This document shows, piece after piece, positions 5,393 through 18,871 of a stretch of DNA of 64,000 bases. The notes under the pieces were generated by a model. It was not told the origin of the DNA. It saw nothing but the letters and a program-made list of their open reading frames with translations, and did no database searches. A program made the position numbers and the translations under genes. Source of the stretch: Gemmatimonadaceae bacterium (GTDB taxonomy: Bacteria; Gemmatimonadota; Gemmatimonadetes; Gemmatimonadales; Gemmatimonadaceae); NCBI GenBank assembly GCA_013813715.1, contig JACCRF010000001.1, forward strand, positions 21,614-85,613, in the 5' to 3' direction. Position 1 is the first letter of the stretch. Every line of letters starts with the position of its first letter.

Positions 5393-5967
5393 CTAGTTTC
5401 CGTTGTGGGCCAGGCGCAGGAACTCGTCCCGCGTCTTGGAGTCGTCGCGAAAGACACCGCGCAGCGCCGACGTGATCGTCTTCGAGTTCTGCTTCTGCAC
5501 TCCCCGCATCATCATGCAGAGATGATACGCTTCGATCACCACCCCGACTCCGAGGGGATCGAGAACGTCCGTCAGCGCTTCCGCGATCTGCTCGGTGAGG
5601 CGCTCCTGAACCTGGAGCCGCTGCGCAAACACGTCCACTACCCGCGGCAGCTTGGACAATCCCACTATCCGCCCATTCGGGATGTAGGCGACATGCGCCC
5701 TTCCGTAGAATGGAAGCATGTGGTGCTCGCACATTGAGTACAGCTCGATGTCGCGAACCATGATCATGTTCGAGTGGCAGTCGTCGAACATTGCATCGCC
5801 GATGACCAGCCGCACATCCTGCTCGTAACCGCGCGTAAGCCATTGCAATGATGCCGCGACTCGGGCGGGTGTCTTGACCAGCCCTTCGCGTGACGAGTCT
5901 TCGCCAATTAGCTCGAGCTGCCGGCGGACGAGCTCCTCGAGCTCGTCAGTCTCCGGAGTATTCGACA
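5393..5967 (-). CDS. folE: GTP cyclohydrolase I
   Basis: [38 protein letters not shown]; start taken as [13 protein letters not shown]. Confidence 0.95.
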
Positions 5968-6362
5968 TAGTTGTTTTCAGTTTCCCAGAGTACCAGCCGC
6001 CGGAGCCGGGCCGGAGCGACGGCCGGCACAAGGATGCCCCAGAACGCCACGACGATGTTCTCGGCCGTCGGAATGGTACTCTGCATGAAGGGAACGTCGA
6101 TGTTGAAGTTGCGGTGATCCACCATGTCCACCACCTCGCGCTCCACGATCGCTCCGAGCTTGCCGAGGTCGATCACGTAGCCGGTGGATTCATCGATCGG
6201 GCCTTCCACCGACACGTCGAGCGTGTAGTTGTGGCCGTGCCAGTTCGGGTTATTGCATTTCCCGAACGTCGCCTCGTTCTCGGAATCGGAGAACTGGGGG
6301 TTGAACACGCGGTGCGCGGCGTTGAACCGGAGCCGGCGGGTCACAGTGACGCGCTTCGTCAT
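5946..6362 (-). CDS. 6-pyruvoyl-tetrahydropterin synthase (canonical PTPS type)
   Basis: [20 protein letters not shown]...[23 protein letters not shown]-x5-HGH spacing; ...[13 protein letters not shown]...PTAENIVV. Confidence 0.92.
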
Positions 6363-6382
6363 TATTCCCGGGGAGTGAGCGG

Positions 6383-6421
6383 AAAAAAAGCCCCGCCGGC
6401 ACGTTACGGCGACGGCGGAGC
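6383..6421 (-). terminator. Intrinsic-terminator-like hairpin in the leader of the PTPS-folE operon
   Basis: Minus strand GCTCCGCCG-(14 nt)-CGGCGGGGC followed by TTTTTTT, about 20 nt upstream of the PTPS start codon. Confidence 0.7.
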
Positions 6422-6657
6422 TTCCAACAGGAACGAAGAGGGATTTTGAAGCCCTGTCGAATTTTGGGATCCTCACTCTTGCCTCCCGCCTTCCCCGCAC
6501 TGGGGCATGACGTCAGCACGATTTATTGGACCCTCTCGGAGGACTTATCGGCTCAAAAAGATGATCTCTCCGTCCCTCGAAGATGAGGGCAGGTACCCAC
6601 CATCCTCGTAACGGCTGTAATTTACGGCTGCGCCAACTCACCGTCAACGAAACGAGC

Positions 6658-6849: not shown

Positions 6850-7887
6850 GTGACTCCCCACGGCGGTTATCCGGGGGCGGAAATGGAAGCGGCGAGCGAG
6901 ATGTCATCTGTCGCCGTCGCCGAGCAGCCCCAGTCCATGGGGACGGTACGAGACCAGCCGGTCGTCGTCACTGGAGCTGCAGGACTCGTCGGCACTCACG
7001 TCTGCCGTACTCTGGTGAATTCGGGGTTCAAGGTGCGCGCTGTCGTGCGCGATATGGCGAAGGCCGCGTCGAGGTTTGGGCACCTGCCGATCGAGATTCG
7101 CGTCAGCGACATTCGCAACGCCGATTCGATGCGCGCCGCGCTCACCGGCGCTGGCTCGCTGATTCATCTGGCGGCGATAGCCATCGAGAAGCCGGGCCAG
7201 AGCTACGCCGATGTCAACACCGATGCCACACGTATCCTGCTCGACGCCGCGAAGAGTGCCGGGGCGAACCGGATTGTTTACATGTCGCAGAACGGGGCGG
7301 ACGCCGGCTCCCGGTACGCATTCCTGCGCAGTAAGGGAATCGCCCAGGAAATGGTCGCGGGCAGCGGATCAAGATGGACCGTGCTTCGCCCTTCGGTGAT
7401 TTTCGGACCGGAGGATGAGTTCGTGAACGTGCTGGGACGGATGGTGAAGCTGTCGCCCCTTGTCTTCCCGTTGCCGGGCGGCGGGACCGCGAAGTTTCAG
7501 CCAGTTGCCGTCGGCGACGTGGCACGAGCGGTCGTGAAGGTGCTCGCCGATCCCGAATCGGTGGGCCGCACCTGGTCGCTCGGCGGATCCACGCCGTTGA
7601 CGCTTCGCCAGATGACAGAGCGCATCCTCATCGCCATGAATACATCGCGAGTTCTCGTCGGCGTTCCGGTGACGGCGCTCCGGCCTGTCGTAGCGCTCGC
7701 CCAGAAGGTGCTCCCCCATCCGCCGGTAACGACTGGCCTGCTGGATCTCCTCGAGATCGACAACGTCATCGATAAGAACGATCTCACCGAAACGCTCGGC
7801 ATAACCCCAACGCCGTTTGCGCCTGAGGAACTCCTCTATCTGCGCAAGATCACCGTCTCGTCGGCGATCAAATCGCTCTTCGGGTAG
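6850..7887 (+). CDS. NAD-dependent epimerase/dehydratase family (NDUFA9-like) protein
   Basis: VVVTGAAGLVGTHVCRTLVNSG Rossmann motif; atypical-SDR layout. Confidence 0.85.
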   Translation: MTPHGGYPGAEMEAASEMSSVAVAEQPQSMGTVRDQPVVVTGAAGLVGTHVCRTLVNSGFKVRAVVRDMAKAASRFGHLPIEIRVSDIRNADSMRAALTGAGSLIHLAAIAIEKPGQSYADVNTDATRILLDAAKSAGANRIVYMSQNGADAGSRYAFLRSKGIAQEMVAGSGSRWTVLRPSVIFGPEDEFVNVLGRMVKLSPLVFPLPGGGTAKFQPVAVGDVARAVVKVLADPESVGRTWSLGGSTPLTLRQMTERILIAMNTSRVLVGVPVTALRPVVALAQKVLPHPPVTTGLLDLLEIDNVIDKNDLTETLGITPTPFAPEELLYLRKITVSSAIKSLFG

Positions 7888-7945: not shown

Positions 7946-8938
7946 TCAGATCTCCCAGTTGGATAGCACGACCCCGCGCTCCGGCCTAAGCTCCTCGCGG
8001 CCCTCGAGTGTCATGCGGAGATCGGACCAGCGAACTCGGCCGCCGCGCTGCACGAGATGGTGGTATGCCTCCGCATAGTATCCCTGCATCCGGATAGCCA
8101 CCCGGCGCGTGCCACTTCGCCGCGCGTGGTCGGTGAGCATCGTCACGAGAAGGTTGAACGCCTCGTCGTCGCGTGCGACGAGCTTGAGCACCCGCAATTC
8201 CTCCCGCACCCGGCCTTCCACCAGCGGTACTGAATGGCAGACAGCGAAGCCGCAAAGGTCGTCGCCGCGCCACAACATCAGCGTGTCGCCAAGCGACAGC
8301 TCCTCGGTGAGCCGTATCTCGCGCGAGAAGTCGTATCCCGGCAGCATCCGCTCGGTGAGAGAGAAACACTCTCCGACCGCGTCATCGAGCTCGTCCGCGT
8401 GCAGGCTCCCGAGGCGGACGCCGCGAAGCCCCCCTGAGATGGCCGACGCATATCCGCCATCGAGCGTGACGGTGAGTGTGAGATGGCCGGGCAGAAGTCC
8501 GAGAGACGAATAGAATCCGATGTTGTCCATCGTTCGCGGCATCGTCTCGAGGCCGATAACGCGCGCGCCGCTCGACCTGAGGTGATCCAGCCCGGCGGCG
8601 ACCACCGCCTTGCCGACGCCGTGACCCTGATAATCGGGATGAACCGCGAGAGGGCCCATCCACGCCTCCACTCCGGAGAGATGCGCAACGTTGAATGCCG
8701 CTACCTGGCCGCGTTCGTCCCGCCAGAGCATGGCGCCCGGCCCCGCATCGGCGATCGCAAAGCGCCACACTGCGGGATTGAGGTGCGGCACACGCACGCC
8801 CGCCATCCCGTCGCGTCGGTAGCGGTCGGTAAACGCGTCGCTGAAAACTCCGTTGAGAACCGCAATGTCGCTTTCGAGAATGCGATGCGGGCCCACGGGC
8901 ACCTTCGACTGACGCCAGGTCCGCGCGACAGCCATCAC
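7946..8938 (-). CDS. GNAT-family N-acetyltransferase (tandem GNAT-like domains)
   Basis: LAVHPDYQGHGVGKAVVAAGLDHLRSSGARVIGLETM. Confidence 0.8.
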   Translation of the reverse strand: MMAVARTWRQSKVPVGPHRILESDIAVLNGVFSDAFTDRYRRDGMAGVRVPHLNPAVWRFAIADAGPGAMLWRDERGQVAAFNVAHLSGVEAWMGPLAVHPDYQGHGVGKAVVAAGLDHLRSSGARVIGLETMPRTMDNIGFYSSLGLLPGHLTLTVTLDGGYASAISGGLRGVRLGSLHADELDDAVGECFSLTERMLPGYDFSREIRLTEELSLGDTLMLWRGDDLCGFAVCHSVPLVEGRVREELRVLKLVARDDEAFNLLVTMLTDHARRSGTRRVAIRMQGYYAEAYHHLVQRGGRVRWSDLRMTLEGREELRPERGVVLSNWEI

Positions 8939-11394
8939 CCCGCTCCCGCGGTCTCGAGAGCGAACCGCTCCTCCCGCTCGTCGGCAGTGGCGCCCGCACC
9001 GCCATCGCTGTGATCTACCACTGACGATGCCGTTGCCGGATCGTACCGCACCGAAATCACCTTATCGAGTCCATCGCGAACCGACTCGATGTGCGTAATG
9101 AGAATCACCTGCTCGAACCGGTCGCCAAGTGCGCGCAGCAGCTCCAGGACGTTGAACCGGCGCGTCTCGTCGAGCGATCCGAATACCTCGTCGAGAATGA
9201 GCAGCGAAAACGGCTGGCCCGAGCGCTCGGCGATCATTTGCGATACGGCTAGGCGCAGCACCAGATTCGCGATGTCCTCCTCGCCGCCCGAAAGCACGGG
9301 CTTGGCAATGCCATCCTCGAGCACCGTGACATTGTACTTCTCGTCCAGTTCCATCTCCGTTGTGCGTGAATCCACCAGCTGGCGGAGGAACGTCGTGCCG
9401 AGCTTAGATAGCTCGGGACGCAGCTCGGCGTTGAGCTGCGCGCGCATCTCGTTGAACGCCCGGTCCAGCTCTTCATGAAGCCGCCTGTCCTTTTCGCGCT
9501 CGGCCACAGTCGCCTGTCTCGCCCGCGATTCCTCGTTCGAGGCGATCGCCTTGCCAAGCGACTCCTTTGCGTTCGCGAGGTTTCCCGCGGCTGTATTGAG
9601 TTCGAGCTCGGCGGCACGCCCTTCGGCGAAGTATTTCTCGAACGCCGACTTGAGCCGGTCGTAATCGGCGGCGGCGAACGCCATCTGCCGGTGCCTGACG
9701 CGCAACGTGCCGAGGAGTGAGCCGATCGATGCGAATGTGTCCGAGTACTCCTTGTGTTCACCGACCAGCTGCGGCTCGCGATCGATCAAGGCGCCGCATC
9801 GAGCCGCTCGTGAATCGAGCGGCGTGAGTCGCGTGATCTCAGATTTCACGAAGTCGTATCTCGTTGCGTCGAATCCACGCGCAATCACCGCGATGTCACG
9901 CCGCATCTGCTCGATCCGGCGATCCTTCGTTGCGATCTCACGAATCAGCCCGCCCAGCTCCTGCACCGCGAGTTGCACCCGGGCAAGCTTGCGCTCGAGC
10001 GCCGCCGTTTCGCCCGTCAGCGCGCGACGGCGTTCATCGAGCGCCTGGACGTTGGCAGGCATGTCAGAGAGCTGCTCGACGCGTTTCCGGTAGTAGGCGC
10101 CGTCCACGACAAGCGTTTCGCTGGTCTCGGTCAGATGATCCACGACGGTATGGAGGTGCTCGCCGAGCATTCGGCTGCACGTCGGACAGGCGCCATCCGC
10201 GCCAAGGCTGATGACGCGCTCTCGCTGCTCCTGCACCTCGAGGTACTGCTTCCTGAGATCGTGCAGCTTCGTATCCGCTTCCTGCTTGTCGCGCACCCAC
10301 TCGGTGCGCCGCGCCTCAAGCTCCCCCTGCGCGTCCTCGAGCTCCGCGCGCCTCTTCTCGAGCTCCAGGGTCACCTCTTCCTCGTGAGCCGGCGCCTTCT
10401 CGATGAGCGCGTGCCGTGACCGCAGCCGGTCAAGCTCCTCGCGAAGGGCCTGCTCGCTCTCGACGAGCGTCTTTCGGCGACCGTCCTCCCTGTACATCTC
10501 ATCCAGGATGCCGAGCTCGTCACGCAGCTCGCCGAGCGGCTCCAGTGCGCGCTGTAGCCTGGCGAGCTCGGCGCGAGCTTCGGCGATCGTCGCCAGCTCC
10601 ATCGAAACGCGGTCGACGTTTCGGCGGACCGACGACTCCTCTCTCTCGTTGGCCGCGATGTCGGCGAGGATCGACTGCGCCTTCTCCCGGTTCTGCTGAG
10701 CGAGCTCCCACCGCGGGCTGATCGTACTGACGGCCCCCTGTGACAGTGTGTGACGGTGCTCGGCGCTTTGCAGCAGTGATGTCGCCTTCTCCACGCGTAT
10801 TGTTGCGTCCGATACGGCGCGCTCGATGGCCTCCGGGTCGGGCATTCCCGCGCGCAACCCGGCGATCTCCGCGCTCAACGTCCGGCGGCGCTCGCCGATC
10901 ATGTCCTGCGCCATCCTGAGCTTTTCGTAACCGAGTACCTTCGATAGAAAGCGGCCGCGCTCGGACGGAACCATCGCCGCCATCAGAGCGAGCTCCTTCT
11001 GGCCGGTGAAGTACGTGCGGAAGAACTCATCTCGCGACATTCCCAGCGTCCGCTGAAGCCGCTCGGTGACCGCGCCCGCCGAGTCGGCAATCGGTGCCTC
11101 CTCGTCATCGAGATAGAGCTCGGCCGTGGTTCGACCCCGCACGATGCGGTAGCGGTGCCGCGCCAGCTCGAACTCCAGCTCTACGCTCATGGACTGTCGC
11201 GGCTCGGCGCTCAGCGAGAGCATCTGCTCGCGGGTGGTTCGTCCGGATGCGTACAACGCGAAGGCGATTGCCTCGAGGATAGTGGTCTTACCCGCGCCGT
11301 TGGGACCGATGATTCCCGTGATCCCGGAGCTGAAGGTCAACTCCGTCGCGACATGCTGCCGGAAGTTCCTAAGCTTGAGGGAGCTGAGCTTCAC
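8935..11394 (-). CDS. sbcC: Rad50/SbcC-type SMC-like ATPase with zinc hook
   Basis: IIGPNGAGKTTILEAIAFALY Walker A; CPTC hook (codons 10177-10188); LSGGEEDIANLVLRLAVSQ signature; LLILDEVFGSLDETRR. Confidence 0.93.
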   Translation of the reverse strand: MKLSSLKLRNFRQHVATELTFSSGITGIIGPNGAGKTTILEAIAFALYASGRTTREQMLSLSAEPRQSMSVELEFELARHRYRIVRGRTTAELYLDDEEAPIADSAGAVTERLQRTLGMSRDEFFRTYFTGQKELALMAAMVPSERGRFLSKVLGYEKLRMAQDMIGERRRTLSAEIAGLRAGMPDPEAIERAVSDATIRVEKATSLLQSAEHRHTLSQGAVSTISPRWELAQQNREKAQSILADIAANEREESSVRRNVDRVSMELATIAEARAELARLQRALEPLGELRDELGILDEMYREDGRRKTLVESEQALREELDRLRSRHALIEKAPAHEEEVTLELEKRRAELEDAQGELEARRTEWVRDKQEADTKLHDLRKQYLEVQEQRERVISLGADGACPTCSRMLGEHLHTVVDHLTETSETLVVDGAYYRKRVEQLSDMPANVQALDERRRALTGETAALERKLARVQLAVQELGGLIREIATKDRRIEQMRRDIAVIARGFDATRYDFVKSEITRLTPLDSRAARCGALIDREPQLVGEHKEYSDTFASIGSLLGTLRVRHRQMAFAAADYDRLKSAFEKYFAEGRAAELELNTAAGNLANAKESLGKAIASNEESRARQATVAEREKDRRLHEELDRAFNEMRAQLNAELRPELSKLGTTFLRQLVDSRTTEMELDEKYNVTVLEDGIAKPVLSGGEEDIANLVLRLAVSQMIAERSGQPFSLLILDEVFGSLDETRRFNVLELLRALGDRFEQVILITHIESVRDGLDKVISVRYDPATASSVVDHSDGGAGATADEREERFALETAGAG

Positions 11395-12575
11395 GACTGC
11401 TCTCCATTCATCGCAGGGGCAAGCCGGTCTGCTTCGACAAGGTAGTGAAGCCCGAGCTCCACGAGCGACGTCCGATCGATTCCCGGCGTCAGGTCGCGCG
11501 ATTCGAGCATTGCCCTGACGGTCTCAGTCAGCGATGCGCGCCTCCCGGCAGCACCGCTTGCTTCGGTGCGCACCGGCTCCGGGCGCCTCGCGTCGAGGAG
11601 AAAATGCAGCGCGCGCCGCTTGTACTCACGGATCCGGCGGTGATCGATGTCGCGGAGCACATGACGCGGAACGTCGCGCACCACGATCCGGACGATACGG
11701 TCGTCGATGCCCCCTTCCAGCCCGTCCACCTCGGCACAGATCTCGGCGCTCAGCTCTGACGCGCTCTTTCCCGCACCGTAGATCTCCGGAATGTCTATCA
11801 CGCGGCGCGCGAGCTGGATCGGGTGAAACCGATGCGACCCGGTAGCGAGATCATGCTCGATAAAGCCCTTGCCAGGAACACGATTCGCAATCTCGTCGTC
11901 AACTTCGCCCCACACGTTCGTGCTCGCGTACTCCAACGACCCTGAGTAGTACGCGTTCGGTAGAACCCGGTGGTAGACATGGTAATGGCCGAGGGCGATG
12001 TAGGTCCAGCGATCGCCGCGGAGCTCGCGTTTCGTGATCTCGCCGGCCGGCCGCTCGGCGAGCCCCCCGAAGGAACGAATTACACCCTCGACGCGTCCGT
12101 GCAGAAGGAGGACGTTGTAGCGCGCCGACGGATTAGGGTCGAACACCGGGTATCCGCGCAGGCTGTAGGGAACCGCCAGCACCGATAACTCACCACCCCT
12201 GACGCTGACTCGCCGCGGCTCCCCTTCCACCACTTCGATGCCAAGTTGAGAGAACAAACGCAGCAGGCACGTGGTCTCGGTCGTCCGCGGCGTTTCATGA
12301 TTGCCCGACACCATGATGACGCTCGTGTCCGGCAGCATCTCGACAAGTCGCGAAAAGTGTTTGTACGCGCTTAGAATCGCCGGATTGGTCGGCCGCACCG
12401 TGTGGAATACGTCCCCAGCGACGAGGACGACGTCAGGCTGGATCTCGATTATCCTGTCGATCGCCTTGCGGAATGCAGCAGCGACATCGGCCTCGCGCTG
12501 ATTGATTCCCGAGGCGGTCTGCCGCTGGTACTGGCGGAACCCGAGATGAATGTCGGATAGATGTACGACCTTCAA
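11391..12575 (-). CDS. sbcD: Mre11/SbcD-type exonuclease
   Basis: TTG start; LKVVHLSDIHLGFRQ, DVVLVAGDVFH, VSGNHET, ALGHYHVYHR phosphoesterase motifs. Confidence 0.93.
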   Translation of the reverse strand: MKVVHLSDIHLGFRQYQRQTASGINQREADVAAAFRKAIDRIIEIQPDVVLVAGDVFHTVRPTNPAILSAYKHFSRLVEMLPDTSVIMVSGNHETPRTTETTCLLRLFSQLGIEVVEGEPRRVSVRGGELSVLAVPYSLRGYPVFDPNPSARYNVLLLHGRVEGVIRSFGGLAERPAGEITKRELRGDRWTYIALGHYHVYHRVLPNAYYSGSLEYASTNVWGEVDDEIANRVPGKGFIEHDLATGSHRFHPIQLARRVIDIPEIYGAGKSASELSAEICAEVDGLEGGIDDRIVRIVVRDVPRHVLRDIDHRRIREYKRRALHFLLDARRPEPVRTEASGAAGRRASLTETVRAMLESRDLTPGIDRTSLVELGLHYLVEADRLAPAMNGEQS

Positions 12576-13429
12576 CGTGTCGCCCTGAGAAGCTGCGTCA
12601 CTCGCGTGCGAACCAGCATCGGCTGACCGCTGCTGGCGGGCGTGACAGTTGACTGAGTGGTGATCGCCGCCCGCGTCTCGGTGATCCATGCCAGGCGACG
12701 ATCGAGCTGAATGGTTCCCGCGAGCTGCCCCGAAGGTTCAGAGTCCCGGCCATCCACATGATCGTGAGACATGGTGCCGCGCATCGAGATGAAGGCGACG
12801 TCGCCCCCGCTTCCGAGCGAGTCGAGCTGAAACGTCGCGCGCACCAGCCCGCTCTTGCCCGACTCGCCGGGAAGCGGAATCCGCATCTGTCGCACCCACT
12901 TCTCACCTACCGCGACCGCCTTTCGCGACAACATCGCCGGCATCTGGCCGAAAATCGTCCGCAGCTCATCACTTGCGGCCTCATCCACGACCTCCGCCCC
13001 TCCATCGGTCGACACCCTCAGCTCGACCGAGCTCTGCGGTACGCTCCGACGCGTCGGCTCCACATCGCGGTTCTGTGAGCTGGTTGCCGAAGTGCGCACC
13101 GAATCGGTGACGGCGAGCACCATGGTTCCCTCCGGCGTCGCTCTGCCGATGATGGCGCGACTGAATACTTCCGTGCGCGTCGTCATGTGCCGCGTGCCCG
13201 CCGCGCAGGGCAGCGGACGCACCGCGGGAGCGGTGTTGCGTCCTGGCGCCGCATCCACCGTCACGCAGCCGGCAGGAGTGCCGGTCATTTCGACCTTCTG
13301 ATTCAGGCGGACGCTGAGCGTATCGCCCGAGCGCGGCCTGATTTGAAGGAGCACCGCCTGCGTCGCAGCTGCGTCAGGAACGGACATTCCAGCAGCGAGC
13401 ATCGCCACCGCCAGCGCTCCTCTATACAT
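12572..13429 (-). CDS. Predicted secreted protein of unknown function in the DNA-end-processing operon
   Basis: Signal peptide MYRGALAVAMLAAGMSVPDAAATQA; TTGA overlap with sbcD and short overlap with herA. Confidence 0.7.
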   Translation of the reverse strand: MYRGALAVAMLAAGMSVPDAAATQAVLLQIRPRSGDTLSVRLNQKVEMTGTPAGCVTVDAAPGRNTAPAVRPLPCAAGTRHMTTRTEVFSRAIIGRATPEGTMVLAVTDSVRTSATSSQNRDVEPTRRSVPQSSVELRVSTDGGAEVVDEAASDELRTIFGQMPAMLSRKAVAVGEKWVRQMRIPLPGESGKSGLVRATFQLDSLGSGGDVAFISMRGTMSHDHVDGRDSEPSGQLAGTIQLDRRLAWITETRAAITTQSTVTPASSGQPMLVRTRVTQLLRATR

Positions 13430-15440
13430 CGTAGGGATCGCCCAGCGGAAGGGGCTTGAGCGCAGCAGGCTCGCTTCGCGAGGTGGTCGCGAGCGCTGGC
13501 TGCGACGGCACGATTTTCCGGAACTGCGACTCGAAGTACGCCTTCACTTTCGCGGGCTTCGCCTTCATTACGGCGTTGCGCGCGCGAAGTATCTCCGGCT
13601 CATCGTAGAGCGCGACCATGTCCTTGGCCCACGACAGCGACACCGACGGATCGAGTAGGCGAAGCGAGCGATACAGCGCCGCCTCGAGCGTGACGTCAGC
13701 CGCCTGCGGATAGCGTTCGGCGCCATCGCGTCCCTGCATCACCGCCGGCCGCGGAAACCGCACGAAAATCGGCTGCGTGAAATGAGGGTGACGAACCATC
13801 AACTGACCCTTCTCCAGAGTCGCCAGCTTGGTCCGCGTCGCCGGGCTCAACACGGCATAGCCGGGAGTCGCGAGCTCGTCGCTGTCCATTCTGCCGAACA
13901 GCGACGTGCCGGAATTGCCGACGACCCGCCGGTGCACCTGCGAGCGGAACTGCTGGGCACTGAAAAGCACGAGGCCCAGGTATCGCCCGCGCTCCGCGAT
14001 GTCGAGCAGCATCTTGCGGACGTATGTGTCCTGGCCGTCGCTCGGAGCGTACTTGTTCAGCTCGTCGACGAATACGATGAGATGCTTGACGCCGAGGTCC
14101 CGGCGCTCGAGGTGCTCGCGGAGTTTGGAGACGACGCGCGCGAAGATGAGGTCCTGCGCGTCTTCCTCGAGCGTCGCTACGTCAACCACATACACGGCGC
14201 GGTCGTCGAAGCTTCCAAACGGCAGGTCGCTGACCTCGCCGGAATCCGTCACCAGCCCGGCGCACCGCGTCGAGATATTCGACAGCCGATTCCGCACTTT
14301 ACGAATCGTCGCGATGTGATGCGTACGCCACGAGTCGGCATTCGCGCGCTCGAGCCCGCGCAGCAGGTCGCGGAACCAGTTCTCGAGATCACCGAACGAC
14401 TGAACAGTGTGCTCGCGCGAAAGGTGGGGATCAGCATCGAACTTTCGATTCACCACCCGCTCGGTGATGAAGTCGATCAATGCGTCGGCCTTGGCGTCGA
14501 TGTCGTCCTTGTTGAGAAGAACCTCCGCAAACTGAAGCACTTCGCGCAGACCCCACGTGAGCGGCACCACGTTGTCGAGCAGCTCCTCGTTCGACCGAAG
14601 GGTATTGAGCGCGTATCCCTTCGCGGTATACGGAGCGTAGTAGGTGACTTTCTCGAACGGCCCGGCCCGGACGCCCATCTTTTCATAGAGCGCGCGGTCG
14701 CGGTCGTCAATCTGGCCAGGCTGATCGAGGTAACAGAGGTCCGGCCCCTTGACGTTGAAGCAGACCGCGGCAATCGAGCCCTTGCTCTCAGGAAAGTGCG
14801 CGAACACCGAAGCGAGAAGCCATTCCACCGCGCTCGTCTTCGTGGCGAGGCCGGACATTCCCGAGATGTTGAGATGGGCCGCCTCGGGACCGAGAAGGAA
14901 ATCCGCATCGAGGTAGATCACCGAATCGGTTGCGCCCGCGCGATACACACCGACGGGAATCCCGGTGTTGGAGCCTTCACGGAGATAACCGTCCATCCGC
15001 AGCGCCGTGGCGACGTCCTCATCCTCGGCGAGGAAGACCTCACCCATCGGAACCGGCTGAAGCGGCTCCTCCGGTATCTGACGCAATACAGCGGCGGAAT
15101 ACAGTCGGATCTCCGCGCGCTCAGTGACGGAAAAGCCCGCATTGGCTGGAGAGCCGTCGTGGCCGAGCACGTCGTGCATCGGCGTCTGAAGGTCGGTGTA
15201 GCTGAAACCCTCGACGACGATTCCGTAGATGTGCGGAACCTGTCCGCCAATCGGATTCGCTCCATCCACCCTCACGATCGTCCCGATTCCGACGGGAGAA
15301 TCGAGCGCCGTCCAGAAATGGAATTCGTGTGGCGTGTTTGGCTTACGCTCGGTCGCGACGACCCGGCCCAGCGGAGCGGTCAAGATATCGCTCTCAGAAA
15401 TTCTTCGGTGTCGCGAATACCGTACGCCATCTTGTCCCAC
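13422..15440 (-). CDS. herA: HerA-like bipolar DNA translocase ATPase
   Basis: HLNISGMSGLATKTSAVEWLLASVF (atypical P-loop), LIVFVDELNKYAPS Walker B, GNSGTSLFGRM; next to NurA. N-terminal start uncertain. Confidence 0.85.
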   Translation of the reverse strand: MGQDGVRYSRHRRISESDILTAPLGRVVATERKPNTPHEFHFWTALDSPVGIGTIVRVDGANPIGGQVPHIYGIVVEGFSYTDLQTPMHDVLGHDGSPANAGFSVTERAEIRLYSAAVLRQIPEEPLQPVPMGEVFLAEDEDVATALRMDGYLREGSNTGIPVGVYRAGATDSVIYLDADFLLGPEAAHLNISGMSGLATKTSAVEWLLASVFAHFPESKGSIAAVCFNVKGPDLCYLDQPGQIDDRDRALYEKMGVRAGPFEKVTYYAPYTAKGYALNTLRSNEELLDNVVPLTWGLREVLQFAEVLLNKDDIDAKADALIDFITERVVNRKFDADPHLSREHTVQSFGDLENWFRDLLRGLERANADSWRTHHIATIRKVRNRLSNISTRCAGLVTDSGEVSDLPFGSFDDRAVYVVDVATLEEDAQDLIFARVVSKLREHLERRDLGVKHLIVFVDELNKYAPSDGQDTYVRKMLLDIAERGRYLGLVLFSAQQFRSQVHRRVVGNSGTSLFGRMDSDELATPGYAVLSPATRTKLATLEKGQLMVRHPHFTQPIFVRFPRPAVMQGRDGAERYPQAADVTLEAALYRSLRLLDPSVSLSWAKDMVALYDEPEILRARNAVMKAKPAKVKAYFESQFRKIVPSQPALATTSRSEPAALKPLPLGDPYDV

Positions 15441-16396
15441 CGCCCGTCGGGAAGTGCGAGTGGCGAGCCCTCGGCCACGACCCAGCGCGATATCTCATCG
15501 GCCCGCGACGTGATGTCCTCGCCATCAGCCGCTTCAACCCGCACGAGGCCGAACAAGGCATCGCGCCCGCTGGCGTTCCGCACGCGAAGATACCAGCTCG
15601 CGACCGCCTGCCTCGTGCGCGGTGACACCTTGAAGATGGACGATCGCTCGCCGGCGGCGAGGCCGACGATGACCTCGAACGCATCGCCCTCGGCGTAGAG
15701 CCGGCGGTGGCTCTTGATTATCCCGACGGCGCGACGTGATCCCGCCACAGAGCCATTGGCGGTGATACTTCCGTCAACGTAGAGAACTCCCTCTTCCGAG
15801 CCGCACCATTCCTCGGCGAGCTCCTGCTCGAGCAGCTCGCGATCCTGCTGTATCCGCTGCACCGCACGCTCCATGAGGGCCGCGGGGTGGCGCGAGGGAA
15901 ACTTGCCGGCTGCATCCGGCACCCCCGTATCCACCACCCGGCCGTCGTGCCGGAGCTCAACAGGAATTGCGTCCACATAGCGAATCGGAACGTAGAATCG
16001 CCGCGCCACAGTCGGGGCCCGACGCTGCCAGGCGACGAGACGCCGGTCGACGCGCACGCGCACGGCAGCCGAGACCGTCCCCCACACGATCGGTATCCCG
16101 CCCATGTGGCTCACGATGCCAATCTGCTGCGTGCCGTCCAGGAAACCGCCGAATCCGCTGGAGCCGCGAACAGTGCGAGGATCAGCGACGCGAATCGCCC
16201 TGAAACTGGTGCCTTCCATGAGCGAAGGCTGGACCATGACCGGCGGTTCATCGCTCCGACCATAAATGTCGCCGTCGCCGGGCGGCGCATCAACCGGCGT
16301 GCAGCCGGGAACATGACTCTGAATGAACCGCCGCGCTTCATGCGCCGATACCGGCCAAGCCTCGCGTTCGCCGCGCTCGGATGATTGCGGTATCAC
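15380..16396 (-). CDS. nurA: NurA-domain nuclease
   Basis: GTG start overlapping the upstream stop (GTGA); GFLDGTQQIGIV, VLYVDGSITANGSVAGSRRAVGIIKSH NurA-like acidic motifs; paired with HerA. Confidence 0.8.
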   Translation of the reverse strand: MIPQSSERGEREAWPVSAHEARRFIQSHVPGCTPVDAPPGDGDIYGRSDEPPVMVQPSLMEGTSFRAIRVADPRTVRGSSGFGGFLDGTQQIGIVSHMGGIPIVWGTVSAAVRVRVDRRLVAWQRRAPTVARRFYVPIRYVDAIPVELRHDGRVVDTGVPDAAGKFPSRHPAALMERAVQRIQQDRELLEQELAEEWCGSEEGVLYVDGSITANGSVAGSRRAVGIIKSHRRLYAEGDAFEVIVGLAAGERSSIFKVSPRTRQAVASWYLRVRNASGRDALFGLVRVEAADGEDITSRADEISRWVVAEGSPLALPDGRWDKMAYGIRDTEEFLRAIS

Positions 16397-16671
16397 TCCA
16401 ACCCGATGTCCCACGCCTGCTCCAGATCCTTCTTCGAGTAAGCCCGAAAGGCTGTCAGCGTCTGCGTACTTCGGAGCCCGGGCACCGACGTGATGTTCTC
16501 TGTCACGACTCGCGCCACACTCTCGTAGTCGGTCACCTCTACGAGCGCCACCAGATCCCACTCGCCCGATACTGAATACACCTGCGAAACGCCCTCGATT
16601 CCCGCGAGCTTCGTCGCGCACTGAGGAATGGACTTCGGTTCGGCTTTGATCAGAACGATTGCTGTGATCAT
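16393..16671 (-). CDS. Stand-alone RAM (AsnC/Lrp ligand-binding) domain protein
   Basis: MITAIVLIKAEPKSIPQCATKLAGIEGVSQVYSVSGEWDLVALVEVTDYESVARVVTENI; 92 aa, no HTH. Confidence 0.85.
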   Translation of the reverse strand: MITAIVLIKAEPKSIPQCATKLAGIEGVSQVYSVSGEWDLVALVEVTDYESVARVVTENITSVPGLRSTQTLTAFRAYSKKDLEQAWDIGLE

Positions 16672-16826
16672 TGAGGCGAGTACGTGGGGCGGCAGCTGAT
16701 CGAGCGGCGGGCGATACGCAACCTGTGATGCTATACTTCAATTCGGTGCGAACGCGCCCCGAGCTAGAGATAATAACAGTATCGGCGCGGCGGAAACTGC
16801 GCCATGTCGCATTCAGGAGCACGCAG

Positions 16827-18263
16827 GTGGAAACGGAAGAGAGAGAGGAACGCGGCTCCGGCCGCAGTCAGAACGTCGTTCACACCCTTCCGCGCTCAAT
16901 GGCCTCCGTGCCCCATTTTCTGACCGGTCCCCTCGAGCGAACCGACCCGGCTGCAGGGGAGACTCAGGTGCTCGTAATAACCTCCGACCCGGAGAGCGCG
17001 GTAACGCTCGCCGAGACGGTTCTCCGGATGACCGGTCCGGGCGGCATCGAGCTTTTCCCGGTGACGACGGCACGCCGTGCCGCGCGGCTGATGGCGGGCC
17101 GGCCAGTCCTCGCAGTGGCCGCGTCTCCGCGCGACATCCAGGACCTGGTGCGCGGCAGCCACATCAAGATGACGGGGATACGGACAATCGTTCTGGCGTG
17201 GGCCGACGAGATACTGAATGGCGATCCGGCCGGAATCGAGGCACTCGAGTCGATTATGGGCGAGCTCCCGAATGACGCCGCGCGAGTAGTCGTCACGAGC
17301 CGGTCGGAGGGCCGAGTCAACGCCTTCGCAGAACGCTACTTGCGGCGTGCCCGTCGCGAGGTGGCCGAGGACATGGCGGGCGAGCCGATCTCGCTTCAGT
17401 ACTTGACCGTGTCGCCAACCGGCAGGGCGGCGGCTCTGCGGCGGCTCCTCGACGACCTCGATCCGCCGTCGGCGGCGGTAATCGTCAGCTCGGAGGAGGC
17501 GGAAGTCGAAGTCCGGCGAACACTGCGATTGCTAGGCTACGCCGACGATTCTTCAAGTGTGCGAGTGTCTCGCGGCCAGGTCGAGGCAGGAACGCACGCC
17601 GTCATTTTTTTCGATGTGCCAGGCGCTAGAGAGCTGATGTCGCCCGCCGTCGCCGCGTCCCCAGTGACCATCGTCGCACTGACAGAGCCGCGAGAAGTCA
17701 GTGCCATGCGAAGACTCGCTGGGGGCGAGGTGAAGCCCTTCACCCTGAGCGCTCCTGGAGCCTCAGCGCGCGAGCGGGAAGCGGCGATCCGCCGGGAGCT
17801 CGCAGGAGTGCTCGACTCCGGGCTCGCGTCGCGCGAGGTGCTTGCGCTCGAGCCCCTGCTCGACCGGCACGATGGCATCGAAATAGCCGCTGCGGCGTTG
17901 CGGCTCCTGGAGAAAGAGCGGATGCTTCGAAAGGGCACCGGCGTTGAATCGCGGACGCGATCGGTAACACCGCCGGCGGCGGCGCCAGCTCGCGGCGGTT
18001 TCGACCGCGGCAGCAGCCCGAGCTCTCGGCCGTTCGGTGACCGTCCGCAGGGAGGTGCCGGCCGCGGTCGCGGTGGCCCGCCGCGCGGCGCAGAAAGTCC
18101 GCCCGATGCCCGCGGCCGTCCCCCGCGCAACGACCGCAGCCGTCCCCCGCGCGATGACCGTGGCCGGACTCCGCGCGATGACGACCGCCGTCCTCCACGC
18201 AATGACGGCGGCAGCCCGCCACGGGACGGATTCATGCGCCCGCCGCGGCGCGACCGTCCATGA
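16827..18263 (+). CDS. Degenerate DEAD-box-helicase-like protein with Arg/Pro/Asp octapeptide-repeat tail
   Basis: DEAD-like order of segments ([12 protein letters not shown]..., [44 protein letters not shown]) but no Walker A; start (GTG 16827) uncertain. Confidence 0.6.
18117..18260 (+). repeat. Six tandem 24-bp units encoding octapeptides of the form RPPRxDxx
   Basis: [48 protein letters not shown] at exact 24-nt period. Confidence 0.85.
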
Positions 18264-18871
18264 CCCAGGCTTTCCATCAGACCGGAGGATGGATCGAAGT
18301 CATCGCCGGCGTGATGTTCAGCGGCAAGAGCGAGGAGTTGATTCGCCGGGTGCGACGCGCGATCATCGCACGCAAGCGCGTCCAGGTATTCAAGTCGCAT
18401 CTCGACGCCCGGTACGCGGGCATCTACAGCATTTCCAGTCACGATGGTCGAACCGTGCATGCTGTGCCCGCTGACTCGGCGGCGCAGATCGCGCTTCAGA
18501 TTGACCCGATGGCGCATGTTATCGCGATCGACGAAGCGCAGTTTCTCGACGAAGGGGTCGTTCCGCTGGTGACCTCGCTGGCGGCGCGTGGTCGCCGCGT
18601 AATCGTCGCTGGAACCGATACGGATTTCCGCGGCGAGCCATTTGGGGCGATGCCGGATCTGATGGCCATCGCAGAAGTGGTGGATAAGCTACACGCCATC
18701 TGCGTCCTCTGCGGGGGGCCGGCCAGCCGCAATCAGCGTCTCATTGGCGGGCGGCCAGCCCCCTACGACTCGCCAACGATAATGGTAGGCGGCACCGAAT
18801 CCTACGAGGCGCGCTGTCGTATGTGCTTCTCGATTCCGCGAAGGGACGCCCATCAGGCGTCGCTGCTTTGA
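18260..18871 (+). CDS. tdk: Thymidine kinase
   Basis: [34 protein letters not shown], zinc-binding Cys pairs; ATGA overlap. Confidence 0.95.

Follow-up and report, generated by a model that had tools for sequence, protein, structure and literature searches.

What are NurA, HerA, Mre11, and Rad50 doing side by side in a bacterium? The question is raised by positions 7946-16671 of the 64,000-nucleotide stretch analyzed here (the window), which comes from a soil bacterium of the family Gemmatimonadaceae, phylum Gemmatimonadota (contig JACCRF010000001.1 of assembly GCA_013813715.1; 3.73 Mb, 183 contigs, 96.6% complete). The open reading frame (ORF) translations confirm seven genes on the minus strand, in the order RAM-NurA-HerA-secreted protein-Mre11-Rad50-GNAT (Table 1). 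They lie where a preliminary description, which took them for one overlapping array, had placed them, and that picture holds: every ORF is present and the junctions overlap by 4 to 8 nt, with an alternative start that would give 61 nt at NurA/HerA. We find that NurA, HerA, Mre11, and Rad50 belong to one transcription-unit-like array, and that this array is of a known kind, the NurA-HerA-Mre11-Rad50 system, of which it represents a genuine variant with specific differences. New are its order-wide, vertically inherited form, its tandem-fold GNAT partner, and a HerA clade in which both of the DNA-gripping arginines essential in Deinococcus HerA are missing. From the comparative analysis described below, the operon likely takes the place of AddAB/RecBCD in processive end resection, working beside RecJ. 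Gemmatimonadales, a bacterial order known mostly from soil and fresh water, carries a four-protein resection set otherwise associated chiefly with thermophilic archaea, in a form that can be read as a replacement for AddAB/RecBCD.

Single-sequence Pfam scans returned no match for NurA or HerA, a phmmer search of the PDB with NurA alone was also empty, and NCBIfam on the single proteins missed NurA and came close to missing HerA. The NurA domain PF09376 had no match in the window protein or in its own genome, and 1 of 48 homologues matched it weakly (E = 0.007). The identity of NurA, as proposed in the preliminary description, is nevertheless borne out by a family profile and a structure model. 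The profile of 48 relatives finds Deinococcus radiodurans NurA (7f6d, E = 2e-6) and Thermotoga maritima TM1739 (1zup, E = 0.006); a phenol hydroxylase chain that scored between these two structures (E = 0.003) is presumably a chance match. The AlphaFold model, with a predicted local distance difference test (pLDDT) score of 93, has the same two proteins as its best Foldseek matches (7f6d, E = 2e-11; 1zup, E = 1e-9) and as its only PDB matches at E < 0.001, with moderate TM-scores (0.52-0.63) which indicate that the domain arrangement may differ. Among the relatives, 37 NurA positions are near-invariant (at least 95% conserved). D87, D208, and K228 (ORF numbering) reach this level in 94 sequences and R319 is also kept; D87 (the Asp of motif I) and D208 are the predicted catalytic residues, together with the motif residues K228, the predicted phosphate-contacting Lys, and R319. 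By alignment, D87 and K228 would correspond to Deinococcus D53 and K201 (PMC9960219), and our guess is that R319 is the equivalent of R309. In one relative (G011, loci L087/L023), NurA lies in two reading-frame pieces, through a pseudogene or an assembly error.

HerA matches D. radiodurans HerA (7f6d) at E = 2e-39 by phmmer and E = 3e-58 by family profile, the latter spanning residues 15-298 and 369-606 of the Deinococcus protein (HAS barrel and RecA-like ATPase). Walker A K201/T202, the catalytic Asp D234, and Walker B D459/E460 are invariant, K231 is also kept, and the P-loop reads GxSGxATKTS, as in Deinococcus HerA. The HerA assignment of the preliminary description is secure on these grounds; its label "archaeal-type" for the NurA-HerA pair is not, as the closest characterized proteins are the bacterial pair of Deinococcus and Thermotoga TM1739. 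The family profiles did not find the solved archaeal NurA and HerA structures in the PDB, and an archaeal origin of the pair is not supported, its nearest solved relatives being bacterial. In a tree, HerA of the order Gemmatimonadales forms one supported clade. R495 and R552 of Deinococcus HerA are pore arginines required for DNA translocation (PMC9960219). Most Deinococcus-like HerA relatives carry Arg at these two positions, whereas none of the 22 aligned proteins of the Gemmatimonadales clade has kept either one; in this clade the HAS region bearing the acidic NurA-binding patch is also rewritten, with an insertion. Because the HerA family is not defined by the pore arginines, their replacement leaves membership intact, though DNA may be gripped in another way. 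Two further HerA proteins, from Chloroflexota and cyanobacterial plasmids (L246 and L248), have differing P-loops (GAAGRGTKS and GMTGAGTKT) and lack the ERGR stretch of all others. On viral-classed contigs from IMG/VR (L239-L241), NurA stands beside or near a HerA that falls nearest the Gemmatimonadales clade, on long branches.

The Mre11 and Rad50 assignments were likewise confirmed by Pfam, by matches to archaeal structures, and by conserved motifs. Mre11 matches PF00149 (E = 4e-12), TIGR00619 (E = 1.6e-19), and Methanocaldococcus jannaschii Mre11 (3auz, E = 1.7e-18), and its phosphoesterase motifs are conserved; its model scores are ambiguous (71 bits on sbcd versus 64 on the archaeal Mre11 model). 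Rad50, the single one in its genome, matches PF13476 (E = 1e-17) and M. jannaschii Rad50 (3aux, E = 1.4e-31), scores 159 bits on the archaeal Rad50 model versus 89 bits on the SbcC model, and retains a zinc hook (C403-x2-C406) together with conserved Walker A, signature, and Walker B motifs. By these scores, the pair appears to lean toward the archaeal models. Arcobacter and Pontibacillus plasmids also encode Rad50-like ATPases whose similarity extends through most of the protein, together with a phosphoesterase partner; given such relatives in other bacteria, an archaeal transfer of Mre11-Rad50 is not implied, and we do not claim a recent one.

Linkage in relatives, the check that the preliminary description had proposed, is conserved. 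The order NurA-HerA-(secreted protein)-Mre11-Rad50-GNAT recurs across 100 relative loci, which were drawn from two collections sharing some genomes, so that a few loci are counted twice. The five core genes NurA-HerA-Mre11-Rad50-GNAT lie on one strand at 53 of the 56 relative loci with enough flank, a linkage far above chance. In-frame 4-nt start/stop overlaps, of the kind that couples translation, were seen at 45/94 NurA/HerA, 52/79 Mre11/Rad50, and 26/65 Rad50/GNAT junctions. The 80 HerA relatives kept from the genome collection are on contigs of Gemmatimonadaceae, Gemmatimonadales, Gemmatimonadetes/Gemmatimonadota, or genera of that phylum, with one labeled "bacterium", and of 298 genomes sampled from the phylum, 158 carry the locus. 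Dozens of relatives share its neighbors (by reading, thymidine kinase-, CoaE-, and GcvH/GcvP-like genes on one side and pterin-synthase- and GTP-cyclohydrolase-like genes on the other), which marks the locus as a core site with vertical inheritance; the grouping itself is genuine and ancient, and has been passed down throughout the order. In one relative (G022, locus L075), some 15.5 kb separate NurA from HerA, the operon having apparently been split by an insertion or rearrangement.

A few relatives lack NurA-HerA. At the same site in L194 and L195, which belong to another genus, nurA-herA is missing while RAM, the secreted protein, Mre11, Rad50, GNAT, and both flanks are kept, and L197 and L198 retain Mre11-Rad50-GNAT only; several members of this group also have no strong AddAB-type nuclease match. 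Such clean losses are what would be expected if Mre11-Rad50-GNAT were the functional core, cleaning hairpins or ends like SbcCD, and NurA-HerA an independent module, for example in DNA uptake or transfer, that shares only the transcript; a Thermus HerA homologue has indeed been studied in transformation and transjugation (PMC5448004). However, NurA-HerA is linked again to Mre11-Rad50/SbcCD in distant lineages with differing gene orders, which points to a shared task, and Sulfolobus Mre11 binds HerA (PMC2288612). We consider two separate modules very unlikely.

The case for end resection rests on kinship with the D. radiodurans complex, on the retained catalytic residues and motifs, on the conserved gene order and site, and on what else the genome encodes. 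PF12705, the nuclease domain of AddA, AddB, and RecB, is absent from the genome, while 12 of 14 control genomes were positive; RecJ and Ku are present. With no AddAB/RecBCD nuclease domain detectable, the operon is probably the genome's main processive end-resection machine. By analogy with studied homologues, Mre11-Rad50 would bind the DNA end and open or clean it, a HerA hexamer would load and pump duplex DNA into the NurA dimer, NurA would unwind the duplex and cut the 5' strand, and the resulting 3' single-stranded tail would pass to RecA. Across the 298 genomes, a strong PF12705 match (E below 1e-12) is found in 28 of the 158 with Gemmatimonadales-type HerA versus 111 of the 140 without it, as a replacement of AddAB/RecBCD would lead one to expect. 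The relatives with NurA-HerA, those without it at the same site, and those with AddAB provide a natural contrast for the contribution of NurA-HerA.

Several observations weigh against this assignment of function. Twenty-eight genomes have both HerA and a strong AddAB-type match, and 29 have neither; these numbers rule out a strict exclusion between HerA and AddAB, and the latter group means that end resection is possible without either. The AddAB contrast is, moreover, largely one split between orders and is phylogenetically confounded. With both DNA-translocating arginines replaced, the HerA pump may hold DNA in another way or perform poorly. In D. radiodurans, NurA-HerA adds little to radiation resistance (PMC4663267); losing RecJ has severe effects there, losing NurA-HerA has mild ones, and RecJ is stimulated by HerA (PMC4663267). 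This would fit a scheme in which RecJ and a RecQ-type helicase resect, as in Deinococcus, and the operon is minor or regulatory in repair, the more so as this genome has a RecJ. We think this scheme unlikely, since nearly all bacteria have RecJ, which leaves the presence of the operon unexplained, and since conservation of the operon is strong and wide. Processive resection by the operon beside RecJ remains our preferred reading. Its most elaborate form, in which a divergent HerA with other gripping residues and an archaeal-like Mre11-Rad50, controlled through acetylation by a dedicated tandem-fold GNAT, would form a distinct break-processing machine and replace AddAB/RecBCD order-wide, we hold doubtful.

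The preliminary description was right that the four genes are united in a bacterium, but the union is not new and is wider than was then thought. The Oceanithermus profundus cluster nurA-hepA-sbcD-sbcC (PMC5448004) is likewise bacterial, with Mre11-Rad50 homologues downstream of HerA; there the genes are called sbcD/sbcC and a GNAT is unmentioned, whereas here it is the archaeal Rad50 models that give Rad50 its higher score, and the cluster extends through the order. The D. radiodurans NurA-HerA complex, which has been shown to resect 5' ends (PMC9960219), shares with the Gemmatimonadales pair the protein families, the P-loop and Walker B, the RNase H-like fold of NurA, and the arrangement of nurA/herA as one operon. 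It differs in that no linkage to Mre11-Rad50 is reported there, while here Mre11-Rad50-GNAT follow. The archaeal herA-mre11-rad50-nurA clusters of Sulfolobus and hyperthermophiles (PMC2288612) combine the same four functions in a four-gene array, but their NurA and HerA are distant from the Gemmatimonadales proteins, whose array has extra genes. Literature searches on Gemmatimonadota with HerA or AddAB found nothing relevant among the papers listed. A second kind of cluster occurs in other Gemmatimonadota families, as HerA-SbcD-SbcC-NurA (L199, L201, L202) or NurA-HerA-SbcD-SbcC (L200, L203, L205), with a Deinococcus-like HerA and true SbcCD-type proteins (239-269 bits on the SbcC model). All 30 genomes of the phylum with this kind also have a strong AddAB-type nuclease domain, and the GNAT of the Gemmatimonadales family was not found in the second-kind clusters examined.

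The second kind also takes in plasmid records with all four genes, from Streptomyces, Sphaerospermopsis, Chlorohelix, Aulosira, and Nonomuraea (Actinomycetota, Cyanobacteriota, Chloroflexota), although the Nonomuraea "plasmid" record, at 11.9 Mb, is chromosome-sized. On the Streptomyces plasmid NZ_CP134205.1 (L244), HerA-SbcD-SbcC-NurA stands beside TIGR02680, TIGR02678, and DUF2397 (Wadjet-like) and an ImmA/IrrE gene, possibly as a mobile, defense-linked form of the system.

HerA-nuclease pairs are known in defense, and the preliminary description had raised an anti-phage role. In an anti-phage or anti-plasmid cassette, HerA would pump foreign DNA into NurA and Mre11-Rad50 would sense free ends. 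Rad50 does resemble the PADLOC models LmuB and mad3, and plasmid-borne clusters of the four genes have Wadjet-like genes nearby in Streptomyces and ImmA/IrrE genes nearby in Streptomyces and Chlorohelix. At the locus itself this role is not favored: PADLOC HerA models match at E = 0.014 or worse, the seven proteins include no Sir2 or DUF4297 domain, HerA forms a single supported clade, and the array, which 158 of the 298 genomes have, occupies a conserved housekeeping site across the order, unlike patchy defense islands. We regard a defense cassette here as most improbable, and end resection as the better account.

Three genes of the array had been described as accessory, a view that needs division. 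The GNAT is a near-constant partner of Rad50 that stays with Mre11-Rad50 where nurA-herA has been lost in place; at 64 of 65 loci its domain begins no more than 60 nt from the Rad50 stop. It has 92 positions that are at least 95% conserved (versus 37 in NurA), including Q104, G107, and G109 of the acetyl-CoA motif QxxGxG, and its structure model (pLDDT 94) has tandem GNATs among its best structural matches. Its probable role is to regulate or modify Mre11-Rad50 or a nearby protein. The array ties an acetyltransferase to Mre11-Rad50 in bacteria, a link of which we found no description in the literature searched. The secreted protein and RAM are looser neighbors, more likely operon passengers than machine parts. 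The former was found at 61 of 100 loci and has 10 positions at least 95% conserved. RAM is present at 67 of 100 and close to NurA in only 25, being adjacent within the genus and often 1-4 kb upstream elsewhere.

Table 1. Genes of the array and its flanks, in window positions
Feature	Positions	Strand	Basis and remarks
RAM, 92 aa; stand-alone Lrp/AsnC ligand-binding domain	16393..16671	-	Pfam PF01037, E = 2.8e-16
NurA nuclease, bacterial type	15380..16396	-	Family profile, AlphaFold model, invariant motif residues
HerA hexameric dsDNA translocase, bacterial type	13422..15440	-	phmmer and profile to 7f6d; ORF 672 aa
Putative secreted protein, DUF6263-like, optional	12572..13429	-	PF19777, E = 4.6e-4, below cut-off
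Mre11/SbcD nuclease	11391..12575	-	PF00149, TIGR00619, 3auz, phosphoesterase motifs
Rad50 ATPase, 819 aa	8935..11394	-	PF13476, archaeal Rad50 model, 3aux, zinc hook
GNAT acetyltransferase, tandem-GNAT-like fold	7946..8938	-	PF00583, E = 2e-13; structure model
Downstream flank: GTP cyclohydrolase I-like and 6-pyruvoyl-tetrahydropterin synthase-like genes	5393..6500	-	Named by reading; homologues at 42 and 45 operon loci
Divergent upstream flank: ORF 16671-18263 and thymidine kinase-like gene	16671..18871	+	Latter named by reading; homologues at 69 and 68 operon loci

The array is bounded upstream by a divergent plus-strand gene and downstream by a convergent plus-strand gene ending at 7887, which leaves a gap of 58 nt; a promoter and terminator scan of the locus gave nothing above chance. 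The junctions, read from the sequence, are GTGA at RAM/NurA, Mre11/Rad50, and Rad50/GNAT, TTGA at secreted protein/Mre11, and ATGTATAG at HerA/secreted protein, an overlap of 8 nt. If HerA starts at the GTG at 15440, it overlaps NurA by 61 nt; if it starts at the TTG at 15383, the overlap is 4 nt (TTGA, 15380-15383). The latter, where the conserved part of HerA begins, is the likely start. The Mre11 ORF as listed, with a start at 12689, is overlong, and the TTG at 12575 is most likely the true start.

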